Of a stretch of 64,000 bases of DNA, positions 2,791 through 35,962 are shown piece by piece. Under the pieces are notes generated by a model. It ran no database searches. It saw only the letters and a list, made by a program, of their open reading frames with translations, and was not told where the DNA came from. The stretch comes from Flammeovirgaceae bacterium BBD 1991-12 (GTDB taxonomy: Bacteria > Bacteroidota > Bacteroidia > Cytophagales > Cyclobacteriaceae): NCBI GenBank assembly GCA_001657315.1, contig LYSV01000015.1:1-64000 (forward strand). Direction: 5' to 3'. The translations under genes were made by a program, and so were the position numbers. The stretch's first letter is position 1. Every line of letters starts with the position of its first letter.

Positions 2791-5700
2791 ATGAGACAGA
2801 CCGCTGTTTTTTTGCTTTTACTATTGTCCATCATGGAGGCCCGGCCCCAGCGGCTGGAAACGGTGGTCCAGCGGGGTCATTATGAATCTGTAAAGTCCGT
2901 TGCGTTCACGCCAGACGGCCGGTACTTGCTCTCCGGCAGCCGCGACAAAAGTATTAAACTATGGGAACTAAGTACGGGAAGAGAACTGAGGTCCTATCCC
3001 GGTCATGAATCGACCATCAATGATCTGGTACTCATGCCGGATGGCCAACACTTCATTAGCAGCTCAGCTGATAAAACGGCTAAAATGTGGAACATAGCCT
3101 CAGGTGAGCTGATAAAGACCTTTGCCGGTCACACGAATTATCTTACCTCAGTGGCAGTATCACCCGATGGCCGCTACCTGCTTACTGCGGGATTTGATTG
3201 GGAGGCCATTCTTTGGGATATAAATTCCGGCAAGGAACTGCGGCGCTTCAAGGTGCGACCGGATAAAGGTATAGGTTATGGCATCGATACTGAGTTTAGT
3301 CCGGACGGCCGCTCGGTAGCGTTTGGCAGTGATAACCGGTCTGTATTTATCCATGATATTGAAACCACGGAGGAGATCACCGAACTGAAGCCTGCCGAGG
3401 GCTACTGTGGCGGATGTGGTACGTTTGTGGAGTATGTGGACAAAAAGATACTTTCGGCCAGCAACAAAGGCGACCTGAAGCTATGGGATCCTGATACCCG
3501 GGAAGCAGAAAAGTTCTTCTACACCAACCCGGATGAGTTTACCTCGCTGGATCATGACGGAAAAGGCAAGGTGCTGGTGACCAAGGCAGACTCATTGAAA
3601 GTATACGATATGAACTCTGCCCGCCTGGACTGGGCAGTGAAGGTTGATACCGAGAAGGAAAACACCGATGCCAGATTCAGTCCGGATGGAAAGATCATCG
3701 CTTTGGGCAATGATGATAAAGTGATCCGGATATTTGATGCAACAAATGGCAAATTAATACAGGTACTTCAGGGGTCCCTGAACCTGGCAGACAAGGGAGG
3801 ACTTAATTACGATCCGTCATCACGGTGGGACTACTATATTAAAAAGTACACTGATCTGAAAAACGATATCAGAACCAGCCCGGATGGCAAATACCTTGTT
3901 AAGGGCAAACTAGGCAACGTAGCCCGTATATGGGATTATAAAAATGGGAAAGTGGTGAGAGACCTTGCGGGTCATGAAAAAGCTGTACTTTCTATGGAAT
4001 TTTCCGGAGATGGTAAAACCCTTCTTACCGGAAGCGCAGATCACACAGCCCGGCTGTGGGAGTTGGCCACCGGTAAGTGTATTATGACCTTTAGCGGACA
4101 CAGGGAGGTAATCTTTTCCGTGGCCTTCAGCAGTGACAATACCAAAATAGCTACCGGAAGCTGGGACGGTACAGCGAAAATATGGGATGTGAAAAGCGGA
4201 GAGCTGCTGGAAACACTTGTTTTCGAACAAGCCTCGCCCTACAAGCTCCGGTTTGTGAACAATGACATCTACCTGCTGATCGCGGGACTGGACAAGACGC
4301 TGAAACTATGGGAAATCGACAGTAAATCGGAGGTCAGGAATTTTATAGGACATACGGACATTATCCATTCATTTGATATACATCCGGACCAACGGACCGT
4401 AGTTTCCACCAGTTGGGATGGCAAAGTGAAATTATGGGACCTGGCCACCGGACTGCAAACGCTGCGGCTGGATGATCACAACGGCCCGACCTATGCTGCT
4501 GTTTTTGATCACGATGGATCACGGCTGGCCACTGCAGGAGCGGACCGCATCATTCATTTGAGAAACAAACAGGGACGTAGCTTAAAAAAACTTACAGGGC
4601 ATACTGCTCCGGTCACCAATCTGCAGTTCAGCGCTGATGACCGTTACCTGATCAGCGCGGCTGAAAACGGCGAAATAAAGATCTGGAATATAGAAAACGG
4701 CAGTGAGCTGGTAAGCTACATCATACTCGACCAGCGCAACTGGATGGCCGTGAGCTCCGATGGACATTTTAATGCCACCGACGGAGCTTTTCAGAATATC
4801 ATCTTTGTAAAGGGCATGGAAAGCTTCAGCATAGATCAGTTTTTTGATGAATTCTATCAGCCGGACCTGCTCAAAAATGTATTTACTGAGCGTGGCGGAA
4901 AACAACTGAATATGCTTCAGAAGATGGAAAAATCCCCGCCACCGGCTATAGAGATCATAGCCCCTGCCAATCATGCAGAGTTTAAAACACCACGGGCAGA
5001 AATATTATTTAAAGTGACGGACCAGGGGGGAGGGGCAAAACAGGCCCGGTTGTTCCATAACGGAAAAATTGTGTTGGATCAATCTCTTCAGGTGAAACAA
5101 GGCCGGTCACAGGTGGTACAACATGAACTTGAGCTGGTGGAAGGAGTAAATGTGATCCAGATCTCGGCCACCAGTGAGGGTAACATTGAATCAGCAAAAA
5201 AGAAGATGGACCTCCGATTCGGGGGTGATCTGAAGTCGACACTGTATCTTTTCGCTGTCGGCATTAATAAATACCGGAATACTGAGCTTAACCTGAACTA
5301 TGCCTCGGCAGACGCAAAAGGTTTTGTTGAGCTGATCCGGGGTCATTCAGAGGAACTGTTTGACAGGGTGGAAGTAGTCTCCATGTATGATCAGGAAGCT
5401 ACACGGGACAATATTCTTAAAAGGCTGGATGAACTCGCCGAAAAAATAAGGCCTCAGGACGTGCTGTTTTTCTTTTATGCCGGCCACGGCAGCATGGTGG
5501 ACAACAATTTCTACTTTATCCCCACAGAAAATACCAGGTTGTACAATGATGAAAAGCTCAATAAAACCGGGATCTATGCCGGAGAGCTTCAGGAAAAGTT
5601 AAAATCCATAGCAGCGCTAAAGCAGGTGGTGATCATTGATGCCTGCCAGTCTGGTGGTGGTGTGGAAATACTGGCCCAACGGGGCGCTACCGAAGAAAAA

Positions 5701-30178: not shown

Positions 30179-31567
30179 ATGAGTTATAATCCTGATCGGT
30201 TTTTCTTAAGGGGTGAGTACTATTCCGGAGAGGAGAATATACTGACCCAGGCTAAGCTTATACTTCGTACGTCTCTGTACACCAGTCTCTTCTCTCTGTC
30301 CTATTTGATCGTTAGTCTTTTCATTGACTTTGATCCCGGGGTGAAGCTGATGATCTTCAATGTAGCGGGCTTTCTGCTATTGCCGCTTTTGCTAAGGACA
30401 AAAGCACCTCTTGCGCTGATTGGCAACCTTTATGTCTTCATAGGCTGGGTGGCCATAGCCCTGCTTACCTATTACTCGGGGGGAATTGAGTCCCCGGTAT
30501 TCCCATGGTTGCTGGCGCCTCCCAATATTGCACTTCTTATAGTAAACAGAAAGGCTGCATTTGCATGGGCGGGACTCGCACTGGTCGGAATCATTTACTT
30601 CGGTGCGCTCGCCATAAATAATGTCCGGCTGGAGCAGCAGTATGATCCTGCATGGCATCACTGGTTTGTTGTGGCTACCTACATCGGCCTCCTGCTCATC
30701 CTCCTCACCATATACTTTATTTTTGAAAAAAGCCGTACTCAGGCGCAGGCTAAGGTGGAGATGCAAAACAATGAGTTGCAAAGCACTCTGAGTAAACTTG
30801 AAGCCACCAAGGAAGAACTATACAGCCAACATCAGGAAGTAAAAAGCAAGAACGAGGAAATAGCCGCCCAGACTGATTTTTTAAAGCAGTTGGTAGAGGG
30901 CAAAGACCATATTATCAACATTCTGGCCCATGATCTTAAAAGCCCATTGGATTCCATGGAAGGGTTAATAAGCCTGATGAAAATGGAAGAGCTGACAGAC
31001 TCCCAGAAAGAATACCTGAGTCTGATGCAATCTTCCATAGGTAAGTCCAGGACGCTCATTGATAAAGTTATAGGTATGGGGGCGCTGGAGCATCTGGAGC
31101 AAATAAACCTGACCCGGGAAAATCTTTACTCCATTTTAATAAAGGTGGTGAATGATTTTAGAAAGCTCGCGGAACTCAAGGAAATCGAGATCCGGATCGA
31201 AGTAGCTGATAAAAATGCCGAGGCCATGGTAGACTCCGTCTATCTGAATCAGGTCTATGAAAATATACTGTCAAATGCTATCAAGTTCTCTCCTCCCGGG
31301 AAAGATATAAAGGTAAAACTTACTACCGGATCTGATGCCGTCCGCACGGAAATATCTGACCAGGGTCCGGGCATAAGCCAACAGGAGATGGACAAGCTCT
31401 TTGATAAATTCAGTAAGCTGAGCGCTCAGCCTACAGCCGGTGAAAGCTCTACAGGTCTTGGACTGTCTCTGGTAAAGAGATACATCGAACTTATGAAGGG
31501 CAGGGTTTGGTGTGAAAGTAGCGAAGGGTACGGTGCTACGTTTATTGTTGAAATCCCACTTATCTGA
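30179..31567 (+). CDS. Membrane sensor histidine kinase (orphan)
   Basis: A 462-residue kinase. Six predicted transmembrane helices span about residues 31-183, and a coiled coil follows at about 190-240. The dimerisation domain has the phosphoacceptor His251 in ILAHDLKSPL. The ATPase domain has the N box (YENILSNAIKFS), G1 (DQGPGIS) and G2 (GLGLSLV) motifs, so it should be active. No extracellular sensor domain is present; the membrane region probably senses the signal. No response regulator gene is adjacent. The FAD oxidoreductase gene starts one base after its stop, so the kinase shares an operon with two putative isoprenoid or lipid enzymes. Confidence 0.92.
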   Translation: MSYNPDRFFLRGEYYSGEENILTQAKLILRTSLYTSLFSLSYLIVSLFIDFDPGVKLMIFNVAGFLLLPLLLRTKAPLALIGNLYVFIGWVAIALLTYYSGGIESPVFPWLLAPPNIALLIVNRKAAFAWAGLALVGIIYFGALAINNVRLEQQYDPAWHHWFVVATYIGLLLILLTIYFIFEKSRTQAQAKVEMQNNELQSTLSKLEATKEELYSQHQEVKSKNEEIAAQTDFLKQLVEGKDHIINILAHDLKSPLDSMEGLISLMKMEELTDSQKEYLSLMQSSIGKSRTLIDKVIGMGALEHLEQINLTRENLYSILIKVVNDFRKLAELKEIEIRIEVADKNAEAMVDSVYLNQVYENILSNAIKFSPPGKDIKVKLTTGSDAVRTEISDQGPGISQQEMDKLFDKFSKLSAQPTAGESSTGLGLSLVKRYIELMKGRVWCESSEGYGATFIVEIPLI

Positions 31568-31568
31568 T

Positions 31569-33263
31569 ATGTCAAAAAAAGTGATCGTTATTGGCGGAGG
31601 TGTAGCAGGAATGAGTGCTGCCCACGAGCTGATTGAAAGAGGTTTTTCAGTAGAAGTGTATGAAAGACAGCCCTTTTACGTCGGGGGCAAAGCCAGAAGC
31701 GTGGAAGTCCCTGATACCGCCACAGAAGGCAGGGACTCGCTGCCCGGGGAGCACGGTTTTAGATTTTTCCCGGGCTTTTACCGGCATGTCACAGACACTA
31801 TGAAACGCATCCCGTTCAAAGGGAACAGGAATGGCGTATTTGATAACCTCGTCCCTACACAACGAGTCATGATGGCACGGTTTGATAAGCCCCCCATCAT
31901 TAACATCGTTAACTTCCCGAAATCCCTGAAGGACCTGAAGATATTTCTGAAGGCACTTCTGGATTCAGACACTGGCCTCAGCAAACAGGACGGTGAGGTC
32001 TTTGCAGAAAAGCTCTGGCAGCTTATGACCAGTAGTTTTCAGCGGAGAAACTCTGTCTATGAAAGAATAGCGTGGTGGAATTTTACAGATGCGGCCAATC
32101 AGAGCGAAGCCTACCGGCAGTATTTTGTAGGTGGGATTACGCGAACACTGGTGGCCGCCAAGCCAAGAGAGGTCAGTACAAAAACCGGCGGGGATGTCCT
32201 CCTGCAACTCCTCTTCCTTATGGGAGACCCTGCCACTCATGCGGATAGGGTGCTTAACGGCCCCACAAATGAAGCCTGGCTCTTTCCCTGGCGCGATTAT
32301 CTGCTGCAAAAGGGCGTAAAATATTATCATCATCATGAAGCAATAAAGATCCTCTCAGAAAACGGCCGGATAACGGGTGTTGCTCTGAAGGATAAGGAAG
32401 GTAAAGAAAAGATCGCAACAGGTGACTATTACATTTCTGCGCTCCCCGTGGAAAGAATGACCGAATTACTCACTGATGATATCACGACGGCTGACCCTGT
32501 ACTCAGTTACATAAAAAAGCTTTCCAGTGACACCGCCTGGATGACGGGCATCCAGTACTACCTGAGCGAGGATGTAAAAATGACCAAAGGACATGTCATG
32601 TACACGGATTCACCATGGGCACTCACTTCCATTTCGCAACTACAGTTCTGGAAGGATTTTGATATCAGCCAGTACGGCAATGGCAAGGTAAAAGGTGTGC
32701 TCTCTGTGGATATATCCGATTGGAATACGCCCGGCCTGAATGGCAAAAAAGCCCGGGATTGCACAAAAGAAGAGATCAAAACAGAGGTATGGGAACAATT
32801 GAAAAAGAGCCTCATCACAGATGGGCAAAGCCTGCTCTCCGATGATATGATAGTAGACTGGTACCTGGACAGAGATATCGTCACGGATAAGGATTTTAAA
32901 ACCATTAATGAAGAGCCATTACTGGTAAACAAAGTAAATACATGGTCACTCCGGCCTGAGGCTTGGACCGGCATACCGAACCTCTTTCTGGCATCGGACT
33001 ATGTGAGAACGCATACAGACCTTGCTACCATGGAGGGAGCCAATGAGGCGGCCCGCCGGGCAGTGAACGCCATCATTGAAGACGCCCGTGTAGAGGCGCC
33101 TCTGTGCAAAATATGGAACCTGCATGAACCGGATATCCTCTCTGTACTCAGAAGGCATGATCTGAAAAGGTTCAACAAAGGACTGCCATGGAGAAAGGAA
33201 TTCCCATGGAAGGTAAGGTTCCTTCATCAGATAAAATACTTCTATTCCAGGCTTTTTTCATGA
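31569..33263 (+). CDS. COG3349-type FAD-dependent oxidoreductase (phytoene-desaturase-like)
   Basis: A 564-residue flavoprotein. The Rossmann motif VIVIGGGVAGMSAAHELIER and the conserved GGKARS follow the start at ATG 31569. PGEHGFRFFPGFYRHVTDTM is the signature of the COG3349 group, relatives of phytoene and zeta-carotene desaturases with unproven reactions. The C-terminal FAD contact is NLFLASDYVRTHTDLATMEG. The usual guess is a dehydrogenase on an isoprenoid or lipid; the substrate is unknown. It is one base downstream of the histidine kinase and overlaps the next gene by ATGA, so the three are co-translated. No Rieske domain is fused to it. Confidence 0.85.
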   Translation: MSKKVIVIGGGVAGMSAAHELIERGFSVEVYERQPFYVGGKARSVEVPDTATEGRDSLPGEHGFRFFPGFYRHVTDTMKRIPFKGNRNGVFDNLVPTQRVMMARFDKPPIINIVNFPKSLKDLKIFLKALLDSDTGLSKQDGEVFAEKLWQLMTSSFQRRNSVYERIAWWNFTDAANQSEAYRQYFVGGITRTLVAAKPREVSTKTGGDVLLQLLFLMGDPATHADRVLNGPTNEAWLFPWRDYLLQKGVKYYHHHEAIKILSENGRITGVALKDKEGKEKIATGDYYISALPVERMTELLTDDITTADPVLSYIKKLSSDTAWMTGIQYYLSEDVKMTKGHVMYTDSPWALTSISQLQFWKDFDISQYGNGKVKGVLSVDISDWNTPGLNGKKARDCTKEEIKTEVWEQLKKSLITDGQSLLSDDMIVDWYLDRDIVTDKDFKTINEEPLLVNKVNTWSLRPEAWTGIPNLFLASDYVRTHTDLATMEGANEAARRAVNAIIEDARVEAPLCKIWNLHEPDILSVLRRHDLKRFNKGLPWRKEFPWKVRFLHQIKYFYSRLFS

Positions 33264-33928
33264 TGACCACTCACCAAACAAACAAAGTACAGCTTATTTT
33301 CATCATGCTGTCCATGCTACTGGGCATAGTACTGCTGATCATTGACAGCATACTTGCTTATGGCTGGATCACGGCGGCATGGTGGGGATATGGTTTGTCT
33401 GCCTTGTACGTAGGGTATGCCGTTTTCAAAAAAGACGGCCTGCTACTGAAATTCATAGTTTTTGCCCTGGCCGCGGGTTTCACAGAGCTGCTCCCTGATA
33501 ACTGGCTCGTACAATTTACCAAAACTCTCATCTACCCAAAAGACGAGCCCATGCTGCTGAGCTCACCAGCATATATGCCTTTTAGCTGGCTGGTGGTACT
33601 GGTCCAACTGGGGTACCTTGGGTGGTGGGCATCCCACAAGATCGGGCTGGTGAAGGCTTCCGTAGGCCTGATGACCGCAGGAGCACTTCTGGTGCCTCTG
33701 TATGAGCACTGGGCCATCAATGCCGGATGGTGGTATTATGAAAACACCAGAATGATGGGCACGGTGCCCTACTATGTTATACTGGCTGAGGGACTGCTTA
33801 TGTCCTGTGTGCCTTTTATTTTACAGAAAGTAGAACAATCCAAAGGCTATCAGATCATATTGTGGGGTATTGCGGAAGGGCTGGTGATGTGGCTGGCCTG
33901 TATCATTGCGTGGTTCACATTGGGTTAA
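33260..33928 (+). CDS. Polytopic membrane protein, possibly carotenoid-cyclase-like
   Basis: The start at 33260 overlaps the upstream stop (ATGA). The 222-residue protein has about seven predicted helices. The segment LYEHWAINAGWWYYENTRMM, followed by GTVPYYVILAEGLLM, resembles the heterodimeric lycopene cyclase (CrtYc/CrtYd) pattern of W-x3-A-x2-x-G-x-W-x-Y and G-x2-P-x-E-E. Here the second part reads P-x6-E rather than P-x-E-E, so the cyclase residues are not conserved and the relationship is distant. Co-translation with a desaturase-like flavoprotein supports a membrane isoprenoid pathway. Confidence in that function is low. Confidence 0.6.
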   Translation: MMTTHQTNKVQLIFIMLSMLLGIVLLIIDSILAYGWITAAWWGYGLSALYVGYAVFKKDGLLLKFIVFALAAGFTELLPDNWLVQFTKTLIYPKDEPMLLSSPAYMPFSWLVVLVQLGYLGWWASHKIGLVKASVGLMTAGALLVPLYEHWAINAGWWYYENTRMMGTVPYYVILAEGLLMSCVPFILQKVEQSKGYQIILWGIAEGLVMWLACIIAWFTLG

Positions 33929-34108: not shown

Positions 34109-35962
34109 ATGAACTCTTTCTGTAGCATATTGTATGTTCTCATTGTCCCGCTTTTTTCCTACCCGGAAAGGGAAAGGATCTTCGTGGAAAACAATGCCGA
34201 TAATGAGTTTATCCTTACTATCAATGACCTGCCCATATTAATAGACAGTACGGGTACACTCACGCTGGAAGATGTTTTGAATAACCAGAGCCAGTTTACG
34301 ATCCACACGCAGTTTATCCCCAAGGACTATTGCGTCCCCTGTTCCTATTGGATAAAAGTGCCTTTGCTTGTTGGCAAGGACCTTGAAAAGCAATGGATGA
34401 TAGAATTTTACGATCAGACTATCGACCATATTACGGCTTATTTCCCCACAAAGGATGGTGGCTACAGGGAAGACCATGTCGGTGATTATCTGCCTTTTAA
34501 AAAGAAACCGTTCATACACAAAAACTTTGAATGGCTGATCGATGCTGATATCACAGGTAATCAGAACCTGTACTTCAGAGTAAAGTCGCATTCCTATGCC
34601 GATATCCGGATTGCCCTGCGGACGGTAAACCGGTTCATTTACTACTCGCTCAATGAATATTTTCTGTATGGGCTGTTCTACGGTATGATATTCATCATCA
34701 CCCTGTACAATATACTGATCTATTTTGCCATTCGTGAACAGAAGTATCTCTTTTACACGTTTTATATCCTTAGTGTAGGGGTATATGCCATGTGTGTGGA
34801 TGGCATTGCCTATCAGTACCTTTGGCCCAACTGGCCACAATGGAATCAGATCGCCTATGGCACAGCCCTCTTTTCGCTGATCTTCTGGTCACTTTTATTC
34901 TCGAGGAGGTTTCTCAATACTTCCGTCAGGGCACCCAAACTGGATAAGCTACTCACTGCCACAGTAGTGATACGATCCGGGGTGTTTTTGTTTGCCCTGC
35001 TGTTCGACCACAGGCTGTTTGAGTACCGCAGCATAGAGATCCTGCCGCTCACATTGATATTTTACACCAGTATCCATGTATGGCTCAGAGGTTATAAACC
35101 TGCCCGTTTTTTCGTGCTGGCCTACGGCATTTTGTTCCTTGGCTTTTTGATAAAGGCACTGCTGTACCTTTCCATTATCCCCTTCCTGATATTGTCTTAC
35201 TACAGCCTTCATGCCTGCTTCCTGCTGGAAATGCTTTTTCTCACCTTTGCGCTTAGTGACAGAGTAAGAATACTGAAATCAAACAGGGACAGGGCCCTGA
35301 AAAGGATCATCAGGCAACATCAGGAAAATGCTGAGCTGAAAGACAAGGTGAATAAGGAACTGGAGGAGAAGATCAGACAACGTACAAAACAGCTGGAAGA
35401 GAAGAATTTCCAGCTCGCAGAAACCAATCAAAAGCTTTTCGAGCAGACCGGGGAGATCAACAAGATCAACTCCATGCTGGACCTTGATAACTGGAAGCTG
35501 AAAAACAACATAAAGGAAATACTCCAGGACCGTCTGATCAATAAGAACCTGACGTTGGAAGAGTTCAAAAAGATCTTCCCGGATCAGCTTACCTGCTACC
35601 GGTTCCTTGACAAGCTAAAATGGGGCAACGGATATCAGTGCACCAAATGCGGGAACACCAAATACTCCGACGGCCAGGCCATGTTCTCAAGGCGGTGCAC
35701 CAAATGCGGGTATGATGAATCCATCACCAGCCATACGGTGTTCCACCGGATCAAATTTCCCCTGCAAAAAGCATTCTATGTGCTTTATGTCAGTAACAGC
35801 CCTCAAAATCAGTTCACACTGGATGAACTGTCGGAAATGCTGGACCTGCGCCGAAATACCATCTGGAGCTTCAAAAAGAAGATCGAGGAAGTCTATAACA
35901 GCGAGCAGGGCCGTTCCGCTACTGTTCAGATACAAAACCTGTTTTCAACACACCTGAATTAG
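34109..35962 (+). CDS. 7TM-DISM receptor fused to an IS1595-transposase-type zinc ribbon and HTH
   Basis: A 617-residue protein. After a signal peptide, residues of about 30-165 form an extracellular DISMED2-like domain (CSYWIKVPLL, NLYFRVKSHSYADIRIALR). Seven helices follow at about 170-395 (7TM-DISM), then a coiled coil (about 400-465, LEEKIRQRTKQLEEKN). The C-terminal 140 residues match the N-terminal part of IS1595 transposases: FPDQLTCYRFLDKLKWGNGY, a zinc ribbon with Cys511, Cys514, Cys530 and Cys533, then TVFHRIKFPLQKAFYVLYV and a helix-turn-helix (about 569-595, FTLDELSEMLDLRRNTIWSF). The DDE nuclease is absent. DISM receptors normally end in kinases, cyclases or phosphatases; here direct DNA binding by a membrane receptor is inferred. 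Confidence 0.88.
   Translation: MNSFCSILYVLIVPLFSYPERERIFVENNADNEFILTINDLPILIDSTGTLTLEDVLNNQSQFTIHTQFIPKDYCVPCSYWIKVPLLVGKDLEKQWMIEFYDQTIDHITAYFPTKDGGYREDHVGDYLPFKKKPFIHKNFEWLIDADITGNQNLYFRVKSHSYADIRIALRTVNRFIYYSLNEYFLYGLFYGMIFIITLYNILIYFAIREQKYLFYTFYILSVGVYAMCVDGIAYQYLWPNWPQWNQIAYGTALFSLIFWSLLFSRRFLNTSVRAPKLDKLLTATVVIRSGVFLFALLFDHRLFEYRSIEILPLTLIFYTSIHVWLRGYKPARFFVLAYGILFLGFLIKALLYLSIIPFLILSYYSLHACFLLEMLFLTFALSDRVRILKSNRDRALKRIIRQHQENAELKDKVNKELEEKIRQRTKQLEEKNFQLAETNQKLFEQTGEINKINSMLDLDNWKLKNNIKEILQDRLINKNLTLEEFKKIFPDQLTCYRFLDKLKWGNGYQCTKCGNTKYSDGQAMFSRRCTKCGYDESITSHTVFHRIKFPLQKAFYVLYVSNSPQNQFTLDELSEMLDLRRNTIWSFKKKIEEVYNSEQGRSATVQIQNLFSTHLN

Follow-up and report, generated by a model that had tools for sequence, protein, structure and literature searches.

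We describe a membrane receptor of Flammeovirgaceae bacterium BBD 1991-12 whose cytoplasmic tail resembles the DNA-binding half of an IS1595 transposase, and which in our assessment is quite probably a one-component regulator that controls a SusCD locus from the membrane, with the tail acting on paired repeats and activating susC. The window (the whole stretch of DNA analysed, 64,000 nucleotides long) carries the receptor gene as an open reading frame at 34109-35962 (+) that starts with ATG and encodes a protein of 617 aa, with the following features:

34109..35962, + strand: whole receptor gene, 617 aa plus stop (open reading frame, Pfam)
34229..34618, + strand: 7TMR-DISMED2 periplasmic sensor, residues 41-170 (Pfam PF07696, E 6.4e-23)
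34655..35263, + strand: 7TMR-DISM_7TM membrane core, residues 183-385 (Pfam PF07695, E 1.1e-45; helices of the model)
35264..35539, + strand: long cytoplasmic helix, residues 386-477 (AlphaFold model; coiled coil by eye; 460-478 at low confidence)
35555..35902, + strand: predicted IS1595-derived DNA-binding region, residues 483-598 (domain matches, tree, tail model)
35585..35713, + strand: zinc ribbon, residues 493-535, with Cys 511/514/530/533 (Pfam PF12760)
35819..35902, + strand: helix-turn-helix (HTH) helices, residues 571-598 (helices 102-109 and 113-128 of the tail model)

Pfam and an AlphaFold model bear out the architecture that an earlier note had proposed for this gene, namely a DISMED2-like domain, seven helices and an IS1595 zinc ribbon at the C-terminus. 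The DISMED2, DISM_7TM and Zn_ribbon_IS1595 domains of the window protein all score above their Pfam cut-offs (the zinc ribbon with E 1.2e-6 and 28.8 bits vs. a cut-off of 25.4), the four cysteines lie at the residues that the note had given, and the DISMED2 profile additionally matches the solved sensor domains 3jyb, 9jpe and 2xbz (RetS) at E about 5e-5. The model of the receptor (mean pLDDT 84.5, pTM 0.65) consists of a beta-rich N-terminal domain, seven long helices within residues 173-477, the last of which is a single helix spanning 361-477, and a folded tail, with low confidence at the junction 460-478 and at the C-terminus; it also contains an N-terminal helix where the note had placed a signal peptide. 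Within the tail, the HTH part is matched weakly by the IS1595 transposase model NF033547 (tail alone, E 9.1e-5 and 22.4 bits vs. a cut-off of 75). A Foldseek comparison of the tail model with the PDB returned 467 matches at E <= 10 and zero at E <= 0.001, its top rows being mostly ribosomal proteins and HTH regulators, and the best match of the tail profile among the sequences of solved structures was a MarR-family regulator at E 0.013.

The note had seen no DDE nuclease in this protein, and the Pfam scan indeed found no DDE_Tnp_IS1595 catalytic domain in it. The possibility that such a domain had been lost downstream by a frameshift was likewise answered: the next gene (fumarase-like, as named by eye) starts 56 bp after the receptor stop, so there is no room for a frame-shifted DDE remnant, and no remnant fits. 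Histidine kinase, receiver and AraC HTH domains were also absent from the window protein at E <= 1 in Pfam. By its make-up, which joins a sensor, membrane segments and a predicted DNA-binding domain in one chain lacking kinase and receiver, the modelled protein would thus be a membrane-tethered one-component regulator. Upstream of the receptor lie genes for a DUF6989 membrane protein (33188-33925, +) and an FAD amine-oxidase family enzyme (31512-33260, +), and we found no connection of either to the receptor. The window's genome (G000) also encodes another 7TMR-DISM_7TM protein (L005, G000:C137, frame 958-2178, -), whose HTH-like C-terminus matches Sigma70_r4_2 at 20.2 bits, below the cut-off.

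The receptor with its transposase tail is a conserved family. Our scan of named genomes found 138 relatives, of which 80 were kept, and 65 of these 80 loci entered the alignment (A2), with 15 left out (late first ATG, cut frames, near-copies). Pfam detected both sensor domains in 65/65 named relatives scanned and the zinc ribbon in 64/65, equivalent to 66/66 and 65/66 (E <= 0.01) with the window protein included, so that the co-occurrence of 7TMR-DISM_7TM and Zn_Tnp_IS1595 in single proteins, for which the note had proposed a search, is the rule among these relatives. This combination reaches beyond the order in L147; both L147 and L148, which come from beyond it, carry this pair of sensor domains, with the zinc ribbon above the cut-off in the former and below it in the latter. 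Cys 511/514/530/533 are invariant in all 66 aligned proteins, and zinc ribbon and HTH are both conserved across the family tails. Of five pairs, two yielded a tail dN/dS, with values of 0 and 0.011, the second pair having a dS of 1.55, near saturation.

Within the genus, 9 of the 14 other genomes searched have full-length frames with tail orthologues of 67-80% identity, and the tail stands in full-length frames of 618-650 residues in 10 of 15 genomes when the window's is included. At wider range, the tail profile matched 111/196 family genomes (E <= 1e-8), 105/291 order genomes (E <= 1e-15) and 39/395 genomes of a phylum sample (E <= 1e-8), counts that take in transposases and fragments; among the matches listed for family and order, most frames are about 590-730 aa long, compared with about 290-350 aa for transposase frames. 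Genome G695 has 13 tail matches, at least 10 of them (among the best 12 of 13) in frames of at least 615 residues, an expansion of the receptor family. Adjoining the receptor in Fulvivirga sediminis is a 659-aa frame (L037:2431-4407, -) that appears by eye to combine a DISM-like sensor with a histidine kinase.

The tail tree was built with IQ-TREE (midpoint root, 146 columns) from 85 rows kept by similarity out of 221 hits, with rows labelled as receptors when at least 300 residues precede the tail, the cut frames L170 and L173 assigned by hand, and row L192 being a cut copy of L226. A single clade (100/97) holds all 52 receptor rows together with four Reg_prop-type rows and one standalone protein. 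Its sister, joined at 96/87, is composed of IS1595 transposases and transposase fragments from the same phylum (e.g., the transposases L221, L222 and L224), and the two nest, along with other IS1595 transposases, in a group supported at 100/100. These transposases and the receptor have in common the half made of zinc ribbon and HTH, whereas the DDE domain is present in the IS1595 transposase L020 (PF12762) and missing from the receptor. The similarity to IS1595 transposases on which the note had relied is therefore borne by a zinc ribbon above cut-off, a weak HTH part and a sister clade in the tree, and as judged from these sequences the tail and IS1595 transposases share common descent. Transposase domestication, as the note had called it, agrees well with this topology, since one tail clade sister to IS1595 transposases fits a one-time capture of the transposase DNA-binding half.

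The same tree argues against a gene-fusion artefact or a recent transposon insertion into a receptor gene. The same architecture recurs in the relatives scanned (sensors in 65/65, zinc ribbon in 64/65) and in genomes assembled as one contig, among them G004, G008 and G014, and the tails form one well-supported clade; with genus orthologues, the 65-relative scan and the tail clade all opposed to it and nothing seen in its favour, we regard this explanation as refuted. The tail is also carried by a second type of sensor, with Reg_prop, Y_Y_Y and zinc ribbon confirmed by Pfam in L179 and L226, and the Reg_prop label requires two changes on the tail tree. Its presence on Reg_prop/Y_Y_Y sensors too suggests that the tail may be a transferable output module.

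Several tail-like sequences stand apart from full-length receptors. Genome G361 has a standalone 137-aa copy of the tail lacking a sensor (L231:1095-1508, -), which ends in a W-x-E-I-L motif, as do many receptors, and falls within the receptor clade (the same protein as L151). In the window's genome, a short IS1595-like transposase piece (L008, G000:C45, 159-residue frame 1432-1908, -) branches apart from the receptor tails. Genome G363 has 20 tail-profile matches, mostly in frames of about 300-340 aa, and genome G779 has 29, including about 18 frames of 154-190 aa that are nearly identical and in many cases lie at the end of a contig; these are probably active IS1595-like elements.

We observed an association of the receptor gene with SusCD loci. 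A susC-like gene lies directly downstream (+1) on the same strand in 61/80 named loci and a susD-like gene at +2 in 58/80; counting any position in the stretch read, a susC-like gene is found in 67/80 loci, and it is absent from the flank read in 13/80, some of them cut short. The susC and susD labels come from BLAST clustering, with a Pfam check on the copies of L033 (TonB plug, SusD and LamG protein), and in L241-L244 susC was named by length and look, with SusD and glycoamylase matches beside some. Other family members adjoin glycoamylase, GH97 and GH30 proteins (Pfam). In a further set of 18 receptor loci, a susC-like gene lies downstream in the same orientation in 8, and L279 follows a Reg_prop-type receptor with susC and susD downstream. 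The window's own receptor gene has no susC nearby in the flank read, and the fumarase-like gene next to it and its two followers are common to L032. A glycoamylase locus lies away from the receptor in 7 of the 10 receptor-bearing genus genomes.

A motif, TcaaTGTTTTTaat..GtaAAA, was found de novo in the 61 receptor-susC intergenic regions (150 random starts, width 22 only). Its objective reached 447.7 in 55 non-redundant regions, compared with 98.0-109.1 in six shuffled sets (60 vs. 40 starts), and when the motif was trained on half of the regions, 22/28 held-out regions exceeded the 99th percentile of shuffles. Forward sites of at least 9 bits are present in 57/61 regions and missing in 4/61, and 34/61 have two sites, which are spaced 64-66 bp apart in 31 of these 34, a spacing that was unused in motif training. 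Most predicted paired sites lie about 130-240 bp upstream of susC, and the Fulvivirga/Roseivirga variant of the motif is close to TTGnnnnTWAAGCG.

Sugar loci detached from their receptors gave us material from outside the motif training set. All five such loci (in G003, G004, G008, G009 and G014) carry a site of 18.4-23.8 bits that starts 156-164 bp before susC, and the detached locus of G012 has sites of 11.7 and 9.2 bits, 65 bp apart. Where receptor and sugar locus are apart, the motif stays with the sugar locus and not with the receptor 3' end. Other susC promoters (9 from G008, 9 from G004 and 2 from G000; 330 bp each) reached 9 bits in 0/20 cases, with a maximum of 7.1. Searched genome-wide, the paired core had one match each in G000, G011 and G012, no match in the 12 other genus genomes and zero control matches, and as the pattern was written after the sites in G000, G011 and G012 had been seen, only the lack of further matches is informative. 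The single-site pattern gave 10 matches in 9/15 genomes vs. 2 in the reversed control, 7/10 being sugar-locus promoters and 3/10 lying inside open frames, where they look like chance.

We also sought a relaxed core in 14 of the 18 further receptor loci, and found it in 6/14 of these divergent regions (L279, L280, L284, L285, L287 and L294) vs. 0.07 per region in shuffles; the other 8/14 regions scanned did not contain it. The sole pair among the 14 belongs to paralogue L284, which has two variant sites in front of its own susC, spaced by 65 bp. The small number of core matches among divergent members suggests that the motif drifts between clades, and the operator claim is firm for close families only. 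Within these bounds, direct DNA binding, which the note had put forward as the output, holds up as the likeliest function predicted for the tail because of the promoter motif.

Co-variation between tail and motif was considered as a proof of recognition and set aside. Across 56 regions, the partial Mantel r for the tail, with the sensor controlled for, was 0.26 (p = 0.0005), but the converse, for the sensor with the tail controlled for, was also positive (0.15, p = 0.008), and many of the strongest column pairs lie in the sensor. An association of Arg581 with CG (22/30 vs. 2/26) had been chosen by eye, and kinship confounds it, with 4 independent pairs.

As motif and receptor are tied by location only, the receptor could belong to the sugar locus while some other regulator, e.g., a LacI-type repressor, reads the paired motif, in which case the tail would bind elsewhere or act by protein contact. 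A palindrome-like box, GCAAACGTTTTC, that follows site 1 in L238, L239, L241, L033, L034 and L035 (altered in L036, L040 and L242) would suit such a regulator, but the box is missing from L240, L243, L244, L041 and L043, all of which keep the motif. Two sites at a fixed 64-66 bp are moreover suited to a long dimer, as predicted for the binding of SusR-like regulators (PMC3878776), and paralogue L284 combines a changed motif with the same spacing. We consider a separate reader of the motif rather unlikely.

Still less probable, in our estimation, is that the tail has ceased to bind DNA and is either a relic or a module for zinc-dependent dimerisation or for binding other proteins. The loss of the catalytic domain would accord with decay, as would the unlikeness of operator and transposon flanks: in the flanks of sister and other IS1595 transposases (7/9 elements compared in full, L228 in part, L155 left out) we found no convincing inverted repeat or match to the operator, with the best single operator-like site reaching 12.6 bits in L223. 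Against this stand the conservation of both zinc ribbon and HTH, the tail dN/dS values given above and the promoter motif itself.

In the window's genome, the presumed target of the receptor is the locus on G000:C118, which encodes SusC, SusD, a LamG protein, two PF10091 glycoamylase-type enzymes, GH43 and GH3. The paired core has its single occurrence in this genome before the susC of C118, on another contig than the receptor. The sites are TTGCGGGTTAAGCG at 4354, TTGCTGGTAAAGCG at 4418 and TTGTTTTTAAAGCG at 4440, with susC at 4589; they score at most 4.4 bits on the motif matrix and were recognised by eye from the alignment. PF10091 takes in the GH144 beta-1,2-glucanases, which would make beta-glucan a plausible substrate of the C118 locus. 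The box GCAAACGTTTTC, located at about 4374 in C118 (L238) and conserved after the first repeat before susC in L239, L241, L033, L034 and L035, resembles a LacI-family operator, and a second regulator may act there.

Under our preferred reading, that of a regulator acting on susC from the membrane, the periplasmic DISMED2 domain would sense a ligand, for which an oligosaccharide set free by the controlled sugar locus is the likeliest candidate. Ligand binding outside would alter the helix, and the seven helices together with the long cytoplasmic helix would relay the signal to the tail dimer; earlier work had noted, at low frequency, signalling helices that connect a sensor to an HTH domain (PMC1592074). 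The long helix would hold the dimer such that its two tails sit on the same DNA face, six turns apart, and each tail, made of the captured zinc ribbon and HTH, would grip one of two direct repeats 64-66 bp (about six turns) apart, with the core TTGnnnnTWAAGCG in the genus. The tail dimer would then activate the susC/susD locus. For the window's genome this would be the C118 locus (susC-susD-LamG-2x glycoamylase-GH43-GH3), regulated in trans. The sequences themselves show the domain make-up, the descent and conservation of the tail, the gene order, and the motif with its spacing and its occurrence at detached loci; in this scheme we infer zinc binding, DNA binding, dimerisation, the ligand, and activation rather than repression.

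Among the matches listed in the open-licence literature, no account appeared of an IS1595 tail on a DISM receptor or SusCD regulator, although an earlier mention in the founding DISM paper is possible. What seems to be new is the module of transposon origin, its occurrence on two types of sensor and its connection with SusCD loci. On balance, we lean towards a broader view in which a single capture in Bacteroidota turned the DNA-binding half of a transposase into a transferable output module, serving 7TM-DISM and propeller sensors and forming a further class of SusCD regulator, and in which SusR's orphan DNA-binding domain may share the same IS1595 origin because it has the same long direct-repeat layout. 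If true, a further kind of SusCD-locus regulator, common in Cytophagales, would stand beside the SusR-like, HTCS and ECF/anti-sigma kinds, and a predicted operator would be available at many SusCD loci. The family would also be a clear example from bacteria in which the DNA-binding domain of a transposase was taken over as a receptor output and then combined with another sensor type, and the fixed six-turn spacing would provide a geometric clue to the way a dimer anchored in the membrane may contact the chromosome.

Compared with other DISM proteins, the receptor has the same DISMED2 sensor as RetS and NicD, whose outputs are a kinase and GGDEF, respectively, and the DISMED2 domain of NicD has been linked to carbohydrate binding (PMC8544897). 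The note had held that known DISM receptors act through kinases, cyclases or phosphatases only, which is contradicted by the published ChiS-family fusions of proteobacteria, in which DISM is joined to a DNA-binding output (PMC8092284); the DNA-binding domain there differs from the IS1595 tail, and the passage on these fusions contains no sign of a transposon origin. Likewise, one-component transmembrane transcription regulators (TTRs) that act from the membrane are already known and reported as frequent in Bacteroidota (PMC10269533), so that the note's new class of one-component regulators narrows to a specific variant with predicted control of a SusCD locus; the main text of the TTR paper contains none of the words transposase, zinc and 7TM.

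Regulators of SusCD loci are usually listed as three kinds: SusR-like, HTCS and ECF/anti-sigma (PMC6874557, PMC10316084). The HTCS of Bacteroidota are, like the receptor, membrane-spanning regulators of SusCD loci, but they have a kinase, receiver and AraC HTH, all absent from the window protein, and their repeats average 21 bp apart (PMC3878776). With the receptor-type tail, L179 and L226 carry the sensor of HTCS. Reg_prop/Y_Y_Y is the usual sensor of that class. The receptor further resembles the SusR-like regulators of Bacteroides (BT3705 and paralogues), termed integral membrane proteins (PMC6874557), which sense maltose in the periplasm, have a C-terminal HTH and mostly lie near susC/susD (PMC3878776). 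For their operators, direct repeats whose centres lie 67 or 77 bp from each other have been predicted and interpreted as binding by dimers across six or seven turns (PMC3878776); the repeats found here before susC, spaced 64-66 bp, have the same layout. The receptor differs from them in having DISMED2 plus 7TM as its sensor and an IS1595-derived DNA-binding domain; the DNA-binding domain of SusR is described in PMC3878776 as lacking significant similarity to those of other known regulators. From operator layout and published description, through which this likeness is known, the best reading by analogy is that the receptor would work like SusR.
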